Virus record (IMG/VR): IMGVR_UViG_3300042691_026234
Span: 1-42,452 of that record
Strand: one strand, 5' to 3'
Source of the DNA: a virus
Length of the DNA stretch: 42,452 nt
Shown here: one piece after another, positions 14,168-35,586 of the stretch
How the letters are laid out: each line of letters opens with the position of its first letter
Numbering within the stretch: the first letter of the stretch is position 1
The notes under the pieces: model-generated
Database searches by the model: none
What the model was told of the DNA's origin: nothing
The model's input: only the letters and a program-made list of their open reading frames with translations
Program-made: the position numbers and the translations under genes

Positions 14168-14554
14168 TTACAGTTTAGTTTCCCGCAACTGTTTGATTAG
14201 ACTGGAAACTTCTCCAGCAAAGTCAATTTGAACATCTTGTTTGATGTCTTGCTTGATTTCCATGCGTTCTTTATAGTCCGCAGGGAATTGTGCACGAGTA
14301 ACCACTTCGAAGAGTCGGGTATTGTAAGTGCGGTTGTTTAGGTTGGCGAGCGCCTCCCGTTCCCACCACGCTTGACTTTCTACCACGGCTCGATCCATGG
14401 CCTCGGCAAACTCGGGCTTTTCTTTCTTCCAGCGGTCGGCTGTTGTCTTAGAAATGCCTAGAGTTGAATACATAATTTTTTGCGATGCACCCGTCTTGCC
14501 TAGTTCAATGACGGTTTCGCACATTGAAGGGTGATACTTGGTAATCGATTTCAT
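14168..14554 (-). CDS. terS: Terminase small subunit-like DNA-binding protein
   Basis: The product has 128 residues. The N-terminal helix-turn-helix reads KYHPSMCETVIELGKTGASQ, then STLGISKTTADRWKKEKPEF, followed by SQAWWEREALANLNNRTYN. This matches phage small terminase subunits that recognise packaging sites (pattern CExVIELGKxGxS..A..LGIS..T...W....PEF...). It lies on the minus strand 19.6 kb from the large subunit, which is on the plus strand. The start overlaps the stop of the 49-residue gene upstream (ATGA). Confidence 0.82.
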   Translation of the reverse strand: MKSITKYHPSMCETVIELGKTGASQKIMYSTLGISKTTADRWKKEKPEFAEAMDRAVVESQAWWEREALANLNNRTYNTRLFEVVTRAQFPADYKERMEIKQDIKQDVQIDFAGEVSSLIKQLRETKL

Positions 14555-21997: not shown

Positions 21998-22107
21998 AAT
22001 CCATAGTATCCATAGTATCCATAGTATTTCTGAATTATTTTCTAAATTATAATAAAAGAATAAATCACACTAGGGGTAATATGCAAAATTACTGTGGATA
22101 CCCTGTC
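21998..22107. repeat. Iteron block A (candidate origin/control element)
   Basis: Three tandem (T)ATCCATAG units (21998-22024), then TATTTCT, an AT-rich core with AAGAATAA and ACTAGGGG, then an inverted CTGTGGATA (22092-22100) and CCCTGTC. It aligns in the same orientation with block B at 32436-32551. TATCCACA is one base short of a DnaA box (TTATCCACA). It fills the 415-bp non-coding gap between the early operon terminator and the primase unit, which also holds two TTGCGGCGCAC copies (21932 and 22110). Confidence 0.75.
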
Positions 22108-31727: not shown

Positions 31728-31811
31728 GCACCACATTGGTGCAGATTAGCACCGTCCTGGTGCAGCTCAATTTGTCAATTAGGACTTTCCCTAATAGGGT
31801 TTACCCTTAGG
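31728..31811. repeat. Two GCACC/GGTGC hairpins and two TAGGG-type elements
   Basis: GCACCA-CAT-TGGTGC (31728-31742) and GCACC-GTCCT-GGTGC (31749-31763) are perfect inverted repeats. TGTCAATTAGGACTTTCCC then TAA ends at 31794, and TAGGGTTTACCCTTAGG follows at 31795-31811. They begin the repeat-dense control region. Confidence 0.7.
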
Positions 31812-31816
31812 CCCCG

Positions 31817-32068
31817 GTTAGTGAGTACTTACTAACTTAGCTCATTGTGCAATGCACCAATTTACCATGCACCAAGTTGGTGCAGCCTGGTTGTGAGTGA
31901 GTGCTTACTTACCGGATTGTTGCAATGCAACAAGTTAGTAGTTACTAACCTGGGCAATGTGAGTGAGTGCTTACTAACCTGGGTTGTTGCAGTGCAGCAA
32001 GTTAGTGAGTGCTTACTTAGGCCGTGCACCAAGTTGGTGCATTGTCAGGTTAGTGAGTGCTAACTAAC
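31817..32068. repeat. Array of 20-bp near-palindromes (GTTAGTGAGTGCTTACTAAC type)
   Basis: Copies at 31817-31836, 31893-31912, 31959-31978, 32001-32020 and 32049-32068, with a perfect shorter form GTTAGTA-GT-TACTAAC at 31934-31949. Interspersed are two copies of the 17-bp palindrome TGCACCAA-G-TTGGTGCA (31868-31884, 32025-32041). This looks like a multi-site protein-binding array. The open frame across it is a by-product of the repeats. Confidence 0.85.
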
Positions 32069-32435: not shown

Positions 32436-32551
32436 GACAGGGTATCCATAGTATCCACAGTATTTCTCTATTATTTCTCTTTAAAAAAAAGAATAATACT
32501 ACTAGGGGGTATAAGTGAAAAATACTGTGGATACTATGGATACTATGGATT
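32436..32551. repeat. Iteron block B (candidate origin/control element)
   Basis: GACAGGG, then TATCCATAG and TATCCACAG (32443-32460), TATTTCT, an AT-rich core with AAGAATAA and ACTAGGGGG, then inverted CTGTGGATA, CTATGGATA and CTATGGATT (32525-32551). It aligns with block A at 21998-22107 in the same orientation. Further iterons lie at 32368-32376 and 32633-32650. Confidence 0.78.
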
Positions 32552-32670
32552 GAAGTTCTATACATTGGAATAAAATCAAAGACTTGGAAAAAGTGATATC
32601 ATTGGAAAACACTGTTTTTCGTACCCTGTCTTCTGTGGATACTATGGATTGGGGCGGAGGTTGTATAGAA

Positions 32671-32683
32671 TTTGCATAAGTAG
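32671..32683 (+). promoter_or_regulatory. Promoter-like 13-mer, copy 4 (first late unit)
   Basis: TTTGCATAAGTAG, with GGGCGG 13 nt upstream. The next gene's ATG is only 4 nt downstream. Confidence 0.75.
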
Positions 32684-32687
32684 ATGT

Positions 32688-32915
32688 ATGAAGAGACTAA
32701 ACCCACTTACCAAATCCCCCTACCGTTGTGGCGATCAGAACGGTGGAATGTTCTTTTACAACTACCGCACGGATGTCCTATCCAACGGATTCCGTGGCGA
32801 ACGTTGGCTCAGTCCGATTGCGTTTGAAAAAGCGCTCAAACGGGACAGACTTGCCAAACTGAAAAAACGGCGGCAAGCAGGTAAGCTGCGACGTAGGTCA
32901 AAGTATGACGACTAA
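32688..32915 (+). CDS. Small basic hypothetical protein, possibly leaderless
   Basis: 75 residues from ATG at 32688 (MKRLNPLTKSPYRCGDQNGG); the frame extends upstream to 32649 but through the promoter-like motif. The C-terminal half is strongly basic (KKRRQAGKLRRRSK). There is no ribosome-binding site between the motif and the ATG. It overlaps the next gene by 11 bp. Function unknown. Confidence 0.7.
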   Translation: MKRLNPLTKSPYRCGDQNGGMFFYNYRTDVLSNGFRGERWLSPIAFEKALKRDRLAKLKKRRQAGKLRRRSKYDD

Positions 32916-33186
32916 GTACTATGTGTACCAGATCAAAGGCCTATTAGAGCGTGCGGATAAAAGTATCGGAGGGTTAGTCGTGTTATTGTGCACACCCCAT
33001 GCATTCGAAGAGGTCAATGTACCAGGTGATATTTTTGATAAAGAGACTCTGGCGTTCTTGAGGTATCGGATTGCGGTGAATGACTTTTTGGATGTCAACA
33101 AACTGCCATGGGAAGCGCTCAAGAAAATCCGAGAGCCATTGAACAAATACCTCGATGATTGGGTAGCAAGTGGCAATATCAAGTAA
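32905..33186 (+). CDS. Hypothetical protein
   Basis: 93 residues, helical C-terminus (NKLPWEALKKIREPLNKYLD). It overlaps the Hint-like gene by 17 bp, and its last codons contain that gene's GTG start. No family recognised. Confidence 0.66.
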   Translation: MTTKYYVYQIKGLLERADKSIGGLVVLLCTPHAFEEVNVPGDIFDKETLAFLRYRIAVNDFLDVNKLPWEALKKIREPLNKYLDDWVASGNIK

Positions 33187-34150
33187 CACCCCCGTGCCCG
33201 TGCTCGATGGTTGGACTTTAGCAAAGAACCTATCCAAAGGCGATTGGGTTTTTTCTAAGGAAGGTCTACCCATCCAGATCAAGAGCGTGCAAACCTACAC
33301 CCCGCCCGAGATGTTTAGCGTGGGGTTGTCCGATGGCGTGTATGTGGATGTGGATCGTCACACCAAGTTTCCCATCCAAACCCTTTTTGATCGGCAAACA
33401 GAGAGCCGTTACACTGGCAAGTACAAGCGGTGGGCAAAACAGAAGTACGCCAGCCCCACCGAAATGCTCGAGCGTGGATTAACTGGTGGGTATGATCAAG
33501 CGTTTTATTCAATTCGCACCACCCGTCCGATCCACTTTCCGTTTGAAGACCACCCCGTACCGCCCTTTATCGTGGGGATGTGGATGGCACGAACCAATCC
33601 CAACAACCGTTACATGTTACGGTCTAACATGATCGAGTATGTGCAAAAGGAAATCCGCAAGACGGGGTGGAGTTTTAAGATGCACCCCCGTAATGTCTTG
33701 GAAGTGCGCCCCTCGATTCGCACATCCTTCCTCACCCGTTACCCAACCGTGCCAGCAAAACTGCCGATTGAGTACACTTTTGGGTCGATTGAGCAGAGAA
33801 TCGACCTTTTGCGTGGTTTGATCGCTACAAAACCAGGTTGTTACAACAAAAAACTCGATAAGTTCTTGATTTTTGGTCGAAATTTGAATTTTTTAATCAC
33901 GATTCAAGGAATTTGTGAGTCGTTGGGCATGAAAACGCAAGTTTTTGACAACAAAACCTCACTGACACACCAGTTGGCATTCAAAACGGACATCAAACTG
34001 CACCCCGAGCAACCAGATACCAAGATTTCCAAGCATTTTGATCGTCGGATTGTCAAAAACATCGAAAAGATCGACCCTAAACCCAGTATTCACATCGTTA
34101 CTGACGAACCATTTGTCGTAGGACAAGGATTTTTACCCATATGGCACTAA
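33170..34150 (+). CDS. Free-standing Hint (intein-like) protein with degenerate LAGLIDADG domain
   Basis: 326 residues from GTG at 33170. The N-terminus (AISSNTPVPVLDGWTLAKNL, SKGDWVFSKEG) is intein block A, DVDRHTKFPIQT resembles block B, and IHIVTDEPFVVGQGFLPIWH is block F/G ending at the penultimate His. A stop codon stands where the final Asn would be, and the residue at intein position 1 appears to be Ala, so self-splicing is not expected. The middle has two LAGLIDADG-like segments (FIVGMWMARTNP; DLLRGLIATKPG) without the catalytic Asp, followed by FLITIQGICESLGMKTQVF. The last codons overlap the start of the terminase gene. I read it as a remnant or domesticated intein next to its likely former host gene. 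Confidence 0.75.
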   Translation: MAISSNTPVPVLDGWTLAKNLSKGDWVFSKEGLPIQIKSVQTYTPPEMFSVGLSDGVYVDVDRHTKFPIQTLFDRQTESRYTGKYKRWAKQKYASPTEMLERGLTGGYDQAFYSIRTTRPIHFPFEDHPVPPFIVGMWMARTNPNNRYMLRSNMIEYVQKEIRKTGWSFKMHPRNVLEVRPSIRTSFLTRYPTVPAKLPIEYTFGSIEQRIDLLRGLIATKPGCYNKKLDKFLIFGRNLNFLITIQGICESLGMKTQVFDNKTSLTHQLAFKTDIKLHPEQPDTKISKHFDRRIVKNIEKIDPKPSIHIVTDEPFVVGQGFLPIWH

Positions 34151-35586
34151 CCAAAGGACAAGAAAAGCTCTTAGCGAGCTTTGCGTTGAAAAATAAGCAC
34201 TGGCCCAAGGATCAGTTGGAATTAGCCCTATGGCGGGTGCGTTGGGAGCTCCAAGCACTCGACCATCAGCGTGAACCCGAGGATGGCGAGTACGATACCA
34301 TGCTCATGTTAGCCGGTCGTGGTGCGGGTAAGACCTACACCGCAGCCAATTGGATCGGATTGCGAGCGGCACTCTACAACGGCACTCGTTGGTTAGTCAC
34401 AGCCCCGACATCAAACGACATTCGCGCGACTTGCTTTGAGGGTGATTCGGGATTATTGAACATCATCCCGCCCGTGTTGATTGAAACCTACAACAAATCG
34501 CTTTTTGAGATCCACCTTAAAAACGGCTCGATCATCCAAGGCATTCCTGGTTCTGAACCCGAGCGTTATCGTGGTAAGCAGTTCCATGGAGCGTGGTTTG
34601 ACGAGTTAGCCGCGTTTGACTACATTGATGACGCTTGGGATCAAGCACAGTTCACCTTGCGTTTGCGTGACCCTCGGATTGCACGGGTTCAGCAGATTGT
34701 TACCACCACCCCAAAGCCTCGTGAGTTGATTGTTGACCTCAACGACGGCAAGGTAGGGGGTGATGTGTTTGTAATCAACGCCTCGTCCTATGACAACCGT
34801 TCAAACCTCTCTGCATCGTTCTTCAAAGCCTTGGAAACGTATGAAGGCACGGATCTGGGTAAGCAAGAGATCTACGGTGCGATCCTTGACCCCGAAGATG
34901 CGGGTATTGTCAAGCGTAAGTGGTTTAAGATGTGGCCAGCAAAGAAACCCACGCCCGTCTTGGAATATGTGATCGCTTCATACGACCCAGCAACCTCTGA
35001 GAAAACCATGAACGACCCCACCGCATGCGAAGTGTGGGGTGTGTTTGAGGACACCGACAAAGGGACATGCGTGATCCTTTTGGATGCATGGGATAACCAC
35101 ATGTCCTACCCCGAGTTGCGCCGTCGCATCATCAACGACTACAAAGAGGTGGTGTACGGTGCGGACAACGACTTTGGTAAAGGACGAAAAGCGGATCTCA
35201 TCTTGATCGAGGACAAGTCAGCGGGTATCTCGCTAATCCAAGAGCTTCAACAGTCTGGGATTCCCGTACGAGGCTACAACCCTGGTAAAGCGGACAAGGT
35301 GCAACGTTTGAACATCGTGGCACCGCTCATTGCCAAAGGCAAGGTGTATGTCCCCGAGAACCCAGAGATTCCCAATGAGTTTGCAGACTGGGCAAAACGG
35401 TTTATACGGCAAGTCTGTTCGTTCCCAGAGTCGGGTGGGCATGATGACTATGTGGACTCCCTCTCCCAAGCCCTACGAGTCTTGCGTGACTCGGGTTGGA
35501 TTGCTCTTGACCCCTTACCCCACCGAGATTACGACTACGCTGACGATGAGATGCGTAAGAAACGCTACAATCCGTATGCCGTGTAG
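34141..35586 (+). CDS. terL: Terminase large subunit (packaging ATPase/nuclease)
   Basis: 481 residues. Walker A is MLAGRGAGKT (56-65), Walker B GAWFDELAAF (D154, E155) and the coupling segment IVTTTPKP follows. The RNase H-like nuclease has ASYDPATS (D282), LILIEDKSAG (E357, D358) and a final GHDDYVDSLSQAL. It pumps DNA into the prohead and cuts concatemers. The gene is uninterrupted, with no intein inserted, although a Hint protein abuts its 5' end and overlaps by 10 bp. The small subunit lies far away on the other strand. Confidence 0.95.
   Translation: MALTKGQEKLLASFALKNKHWPKDQLELALWRVRWELQALDHQREPEDGEYDTMLMLAGRGAGKTYTAANWIGLRAALYNGTRWLVTAPTSNDIRATCFEGDSGLLNIIPPVLIETYNKSLFEIHLKNGSIIQGIPGSEPERYRGKQFHGAWFDELAAFDYIDDAWDQAQFTLRLRDPRIARVQQIVTTTPKPRELIVDLNDGKVGGDVFVINASSYDNRSNLSASFFKALETYEGTDLGKQEIYGAILDPEDAGIVKRKWFKMWPAKKPTPVLEYVIASYDPATSEKTMNDPTACEVWGVFEDTDKGTCVILLDAWDNHMSYPELRRRIINDYKEVVYGADNDFGKGRKADLILIEDKSAGISLIQELQQSGIPVRGYNPGKADKVQRLNIVAPLIAKGKVYVPENPEIPNEFADWAKRFIRQVCSFPESGGHDDYVDSLSQALRVLRDSGWIALDPLPHRDYDYADDEMRKKRYNPYAV

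Follow-up and report, generated by a model that had tools for sequence, protein, structure and literature searches.

What is a gene that resembles an intein doing as an open reading frame (ORF) of its own, directly in front of terL, the gene for the large terminase subunit? This question is raised by the IMG/VR virus record IMGVR_UViG_3300042691_026234, of which positions 1 to 42,452 were analyzed (this whole stretch of 42,452 nucleotides (nt) is called the window below). A sequence-only reading of this DNA had pointed to a free-standing intein-like gene abutting terL, and such an ORF is indeed present, its end overlapping the terL start (Table 1). The gene is called here the Hint gene and its product the Hint protein. 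We favor, with moderate confidence, the reading that it is a domesticated intein that by its residues can neither splice nor cut and has been retained to assist the packaging module, probably by binding nucleic acid.

Predicted fold and altered residues of the Hint protein

Searches of viral contigs with the window protein, terL and three family alignments yielded 149 distinct free-standing members, all of them on metagenomic contigs of which many are incomplete. When the window protein was compared with Pfam and NCBIfam, no family matches were obtained. It matches the PHROGs profile phrog_15 for large terminase subunits (E 5e-9, profile positions 80–305 of 1330) in a region that runs through the intein part of the profile, and 72 of 72 aligned family members match it likewise; Pfam LAGLIDADG_3 was matched by 11 of these 72 and Hom_end or Hint_2 (Pfam) by a few. 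As the PHROGs terminase profiles phrog_15, phrog_19299, and phrog_36964 contain inteins, automatic pipelines may label the Hint gene as a second terL, which constitutes an annotation hazard. An AlphaFold2 (AF2) model obtained with the 72-sequence alignment (predicted local distance difference test (pLDDT) 91.5; predicted template modeling score (pTM) 0.89) gave PI-SceI as its top match to PDB structures in Foldseek (E 4e-12, template modeling (TM) score 0.70). Other matches were the TliVMA and PhoVMA inteins and, for the Hint part, the class 3 DnaB inteins 6bs8 and 6rix, while the LAGLIDADG part matched I-DmoI (E 5e-4). Many matches in a search of viral models were intein-bearing terminases and helicases, and the profile by itself retrieves a class 3 DnaB intein (E 7e-8). 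The comparison with Hint and LAGLIDADG folds that had been proposed as a check is positive for both, and as modeled the protein combines a Hint fold with a LAGLIDADG domain possessing two helices. No match to a small terminase subunit (TerS) profile was found in the Pfam, PHROGs, and NCBIfam searches, and the predicted fold is not that of TerS.

Residues relevant for splicing were compared between the 149 free-standing proteins and 73 in-line inteins. The free-standing proteins begin with Met-Ala or Met-Gly, and intein position 1 is Ala in 136 and Gly in 7 of them, with 6 not covering the position; as in class 3 inteins, there is no nucleophile at this place. Removal of the Met would, judging from the sequence, expose the exact N-terminus of an excised intein. 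The class 3 WCT motif (Trp B:12, Cys F:4, Thr G:5) is not intact: Trp B:12 occurs in 0 of 149 proteins and Phe or Leu stands there instead, Cys F:4 is kept in 121 of 149 and is Ser in the window protein, and a stop codon is found where the Thr of the C-extein would stand. Extein flanks in frame are lacking too, the gene being a separate ORF with its start codon directly before position 1. In the alignment to the family hidden Markov model (HMM), both the catalytic His of block B and the class 3 Trp are absent from all relatives covering them, the His position being occupied by Leu, Thr, Met, Ala, or Gln. The terminal HN has been lost, family members ending in WH, xC, CL, or CR. It had been proposed that blocks A, B, F, and G are recognizable and that the final Asn is replaced by a stop; blocks A, F, and G do align with TerL inteins but block B is only vestigial, and the stop lies exactly at the Asn position in other sub-clades (P-V-C-stop), whereas the window protein ends in P-I-W-H-stop as compared with P-T-H-N of in-line inteins and therefore has His in place of Asn, followed by the stop.

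Both LAGLIDADG segments lack their acidic residue, as had been claimed (Arg141 and Lys221 in the window protein). At the first acid position, Asp or Glu is present in none of the free-standing proteins versus Asp in 68 of 73 in-line inteins; at the second, acidic residues occur in 3 of 149, those three lying at an alignment gap, versus Asp in 72 of 73, and Lys or Arg is found in 128 of 149. No other site has changed as much in charge as these two former catalytic positions. The mean net charge of the LAGLIDADG domain is +10.1 in free-standing proteins and +2.3 in in-line inteins, and that of the N-terminal Hint part +5.0 versus −2.5. Judged by these residues, splicing and DNA cutting have both been lost and the predicted fold has been kept. 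A role in trans-splicing is very unlikely, given that no family member has kept the His and Trp of block B or the HN at the C-terminus and that the Walker A motif of TerL is unbroken.

Descent from inteins in terL and conservation of the separate gene

In-line TerL inteins are retrieved by the window protein in tblastn with E values of 2e-13 to 5e-12 and 22–24% identity over 98–99% of the protein, blocks A, F, and G aligning end to end, and the family HMM matches the TerL intein of Acidovorax phage ACF1 (E 4e-33, positions 4–327). The sequence-only reading had suggested looking for terL copies with an inserted intein of the same lineage. When viral contigs were searched for the pattern GRGxGK with the start of an intein behind it, 38 were found, most of which carry an intein between the Lys and the Thr or Ser of the terL Walker A motif (GK/ALALDTP...THN/T, with slashes at the intein borders), and several of the TerLs concerned are 40–48% identical to the TerL of the window or to that of ctpbd312. 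These in-line inteins have Ala as their first residue, carry the block B Trp and the F:4 Cys, and are followed by Thr behind their terminal Asn, a signature that has been published for class 3 inteins (PMC3196547, PMC5050341). By these sequence features, the in-line inteins closest to the Hint protein belong to the class 3 type and sit in the Walker A motif of terL. Position 1 is Ala in 45, Cys in 3, and Ser in 3 of the 73 in-line relatives. Because the closest of these are of class 3 type and mostly have Ala there too, the Ala that had been taken for degeneration is an inherited, ancestral state and not decay. In addition, one locus (L243) encodes a single TerL with two class 3-like inteins; its HMM E-value, which makes it look like a specially close relative, is explained by the presence of these two inteins.

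In an unrooted protein tree, the free-standing members are monophyletic against 36 in-line inteins (100/100). A TerL tree, built only from the part after Walker A, likewise groups all phages with the Hint gene in one clade (100/100), with a ctpbd312-like clade as sister and TerLs bearing in-line Walker A inteins as the next branch. According to these trees, one gain explains the distribution of the gene, and no losses were seen. Presence/absence polymorphism was not observed inside the clade, the gene being present at 237 of 237 TerL loci with more than 1.2 kb of upstream sequence, some contigs being counted twice and part of the loci having been found via the Hint gene itself. In two later scans, terL lies directly downstream in 123 of 124 free-standing matches; the sole exception, L353, has an HNH endonuclease-like gene (L353:1039-1425) between the two. 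Among 155 distinct loci, the Hint gene and terL share 10 nt at 97 and 7 nt at 53. No members were found when a prokaryote genome collection was scanned with the family alignment, and a cultured-phage collection gave only matches of at most 26% identity, of which those opened were in-line inteins. This collection contains no phage of the Hint-gene clade (nearest TerL 53%).

Selection, which had been proposed as a further check, was estimated as the ratio of nonsynonymous to synonymous substitution rates (dN/dS) by the simple Nei-Gojobori method in 22 pairs, many of them near saturation. Where dS was measurable, dN/dS of the Hint gene ranged from 0.01 to 0.26, most values lying between 0.05 and 0.15, and that of TerL in the same pairs from 0.02 to 0.06. 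Invariant positions are retained across the free-standing family. By these measures the Hint gene is constrained and under purifying selection. Of the two fates that had been offered for it, an intein kept as a separate protein accords with the descent from a TerL-type intein, the purifying selection and the coupling to terL, whereas a remnant in the sense of decay does not fit a dN/dS of about 0.1, one origin and no losses.

Genes and DNA around the Hint gene

The coordinates of the Hint gene, its parts and its surroundings are collected in Table 1. At most of 67 loci compared, orf93 and orf88 precede the Hint gene. The AF2 model of orf93 shows three strands and two helices, and a fold search against the PDB gave no significant matches; for orf88, no matches were obtained in Pfam and PHROGs.

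Table 1. Position of the Hint gene, its parts and neighboring features in the window
Feature	Position	Strand	Evidence or remark
Free-standing Hint+LAGLIDADG gene, intein-derived	33170..34150	+	ORF: GTG start, 326 amino acids (aa), TAA stop
N-terminal Hint part, residues 1-116, border approximate	33170..33517	+	Profile match to M. smegmatis class 3 DnaB intein 6bs8, E 7e-8, profile positions 2-70
Intein position 1 codon (Ala)	33173..33175	+	Ala/Gly in 143/143 relatives covering the position
LAGLIDADG domain, residues 117-285, border approximate	33518..34024	+	Foldseek I-DmoI/PI-SceI; net charge
First LAGLIDADG acid position, Arg141	33590..33592	+	D/E in 0/149
Second LAGLIDADG acid position, Lys221	33830..33832	+	K/R in 128/149
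C-terminal Hint part, blocks F and G, end ...FVVGQGFLPIWH	34025..34147	+	
Class 3 block F:4 Cys position, Ser306	34085..34087	+	Cys in 121/149 relatives
Overlap of Hint gene end and terL start, 10 nt, ATGGCACTAA shared	34141..34150	+	
terL, complete, Walker A GRGAGKT uninterrupted	34141..35586	+	Pfam Terminase_6N/6C; PHROGs
orf93, small conserved gene, overlaps Hint gene	32905..33186	+	In 51/67 loci; AF2 pLDDT 87.6
orf88, small conserved gene 5' of orf93	32649..32915	+	In 44/67 loci
Dyad-symmetric DNA motif array, TGCACCA-N3-TGGTGCA and GTTAGTGAGTNCTTACTAAC type	31736..32068	.	Non-coding region upstream of cassette
Small-terminase-like gene, decoupled from terL in Hint-gene clade	14168..14554	-	phrog_309 E 4.5e-12

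In the sister clade, whose loci are without the Hint gene, 72 of 79 loci have a ctpbd312-type terS, in most cases immediately before terL. Several terLs that bear in-line inteins have terS in front of them as well. Beside terL of the Hint-gene clade, a ctpbd312-type terS was not found. The TerS-like gene of the window is shorter than this type and sits within a DNA-metabolism module on the opposite strand; such a gene, separated from terL, is present in 14 of 20 records, and it is conserved in 12 of 12 relatives examined. The Hint gene occupies the slot next to terL and terS is located elsewhere. A simple replacement of TerS by the Hint protein was rejected, since the TerS-like gene is still present away from terL. 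Two TerL-like ORFs, a short gp096c and a full gp094c, with a methyltransferase gene between them, are encoded by Caulobacter phage GB2A (OR260089).

The palindrome array lies about 600–1600 nt before the Hint gene and is conserved in relatives of the Hint-gene clade, the TGCACCA-N3-TGGTGCA type having fixed arms and a free center. TGGTGCA has a density of 1.86 per kb in the array region versus 0.21 per kb downstream of the Hint gene start; at least one copy is present in 97 of 114 loci, and it is near absent upstream of sister-clade terL. Fixed arms around a free center suggest a site for a twofold-symmetric protein, and the array is possibly an operator, an origin, or a packaging site. The Hint protein may be one candidate for binding it, and TerS or another regulator would be as likely, because a LAGLIDADG protein made of a single chain would manage without perfect symmetry in its site. 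The array is therefore taken as a lead and not as evidence for the function of the Hint protein. In the same intergenic region, ATACTATGGATACTGTGGATA-type repeats are found at 32442-32543, and again at 21999-22027 near 22 kb.

Possible function, rival explanations and known systems

The favored reading, a domesticated intein serving the packaging module, implies the following course. The source is a class 3-type LAGLIDADG intein of the kind found between the Lys and the Thr of the terL Walker A motif, and a single event in the ancestor of the phage clade made of it a separate gene directly before an intact terL, with a protein that starts, after the Met, at intein position 1 and stops at about the former Asn position. 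The Hint protein would be made by translation coupled to that of TerL, its strongly basic LAGLIDADG saddle, in which the second metal-binding Asp has become Lys or Arg, would bind DNA without cutting, and it might assist packaging, for instance by positioning TerL on the phage DNA or holding it back there. Descent from an intein, the predicted fold, the residue losses, the purifying selection, the single origin, and the fixed position before terL are established by the comparisons above; coupled translation, DNA binding, and partnership with TerL are what we infer, and the new packaging role that had been suggested is plausible from position and conservation. Several observations weigh against this assignment. 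TerS is still encoded, so that the Hint protein is not simply its substitute; the basic charge does not separate DNA binding from binding of RNA or protein; the Hint protein evolves about 2–5 times faster than TerL; and no extra synonymous conservation was found at the terL Walker A motif in the Hint-gene clade, which is why the ancestral homing site is not evidently the bound target. In a bolder version, the former homing nuclease would be a third component of the packaging machine that recognizes phage DNA, perhaps at the upstream palindrome array, loads or restrains TerL, and on its emergence drove TerS out of the terL operon; this we regard as rather unlikely.

Present-day homing, decay and simple TerS replacement are all disfavored. 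That the gene is a neutral relic, expelled from terL and decaying before it by chance, might be thought from the loss of catalytic residues and from two of the many loci (L315, L395) that look broken or internally shortened, but it is already contradicted by the dN/dS of about 0.1 across long divergence, by the family-wide invariant positions and by the complete retention at the clade loci, and it is hardly credible. A still mobile element that cuts terL copies lacking the Hint gene would share its architecture with the yeast WHO elements, in which an intein-like free-standing gene stands beside one target and does not splice (PMC7282813), and such a state may have been ancestral; however, with the metal-binding acids lost in essentially all members and no presence/absence polymorphism within the clade, present mobility is very improbable.

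Two further explanations retain a binding function. A cutting-dead nuclease relative, which may keep DNA binding, could occupy the terL site and block invasion by TerL inteins, as would befit the uninterrupted TerLs at all clade loci seen and the Walker A inteins often carried by more distant TerLs. Synonymous conservation of the Walker A codons in the Hint-gene clade is nevertheless not unusual (0.80–0.93 of expectation, clade mean 0.87), and loci of the sister clade are also without in-line inteins, yet have no Hint gene; such protection appears improbable. Alternatively, TerL could be bound in trans by the Hint groove, in which the residues flanking the Walker A insertion formerly lay as exteins. 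The Hint protein would then control the ATPase or the assembly of TerL, and DNA would play no part. The invariable coupling to terL with 7 or 10 nt of overlap, and a Hint fold kept though the splicing residues are gone, speak for such a partner or inhibitor, which leaves unexplained the largest change, the positive charge added foremost at the former catalytic acids; we consider it unlikely.

The domesticated-intein reading can be set beside several known systems. The class 3 inteins at the TerL Walker A site (cf. the mycobacteriophage TerL1-a site; ACF1, MIZ5, and fENko-Kae01) have the same full-length Hint+LAGLIDADG layout and the same gene partner, and their position 1 is mostly non-nucleophilic and their block F Cys mostly the same, as in the free-standing family; they are in line and possess the block B His and Trp, the HN/T junction, and two catalytic Asp, whereas the free-standing protein is without these. 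In sister phages, the position that the Hint gene has immediately before terL is taken by TerS, whose fold is unrelated to that of the Hint protein. Arth_1007 of Arthrobacter FB24 is an intein of class 3 type that lies outside any working host gene and has lost the His of block B and the Cys at F:4 (PMC3196547). Arth_1007 is a single decayed pseudogene with exteins of 66 aa, in contrast to the conserved phage family under selection.

The closest precedents are the yeast HO/WHO proteins and WhiA. HO and WHO, relatives of the VMA1 intein, are likewise free-standing intein-related genes. The phage gene is separate, of intein descent and kept by selection, its new role being a putative one. To our knowledge, the known free-standing domesticated intein, HO, is eukaryotic and still cuts DNA. 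WHO genes adjoin one target gene, FBA1 (PMC7282813). HO and WHO cut DNA and HO has a zinc finger, whereas the phage protein has neither the catalytic acids nor an additional domain. WhiA has a LAGLIDADG fold without nuclease residues and binds DNA. It is a regulator of Gram-positive bacteria related to homing endonucleases (PMC3781837). Unlike the phage Hint protein, this bacterial regulator lacks a Hint part and carries its DNA-binding domain separately. No report of a comparable gene was found in the open-access literature, and the family bears on the question of intein domestication in prokaryotes and viruses beyond the control of splicing. In comparison with the systems above, it presents a large phage clade whose terminase-lineage intein has become fixed as a gene of its own. 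Judged by its residues, this intein has given up both splicing and cutting, and other residues, mostly basic ones at one of the two sites, stand in for the catalytic acids. It offers a clear and testable case of a selfish element apparently turned into part of the core gene set of a virus.
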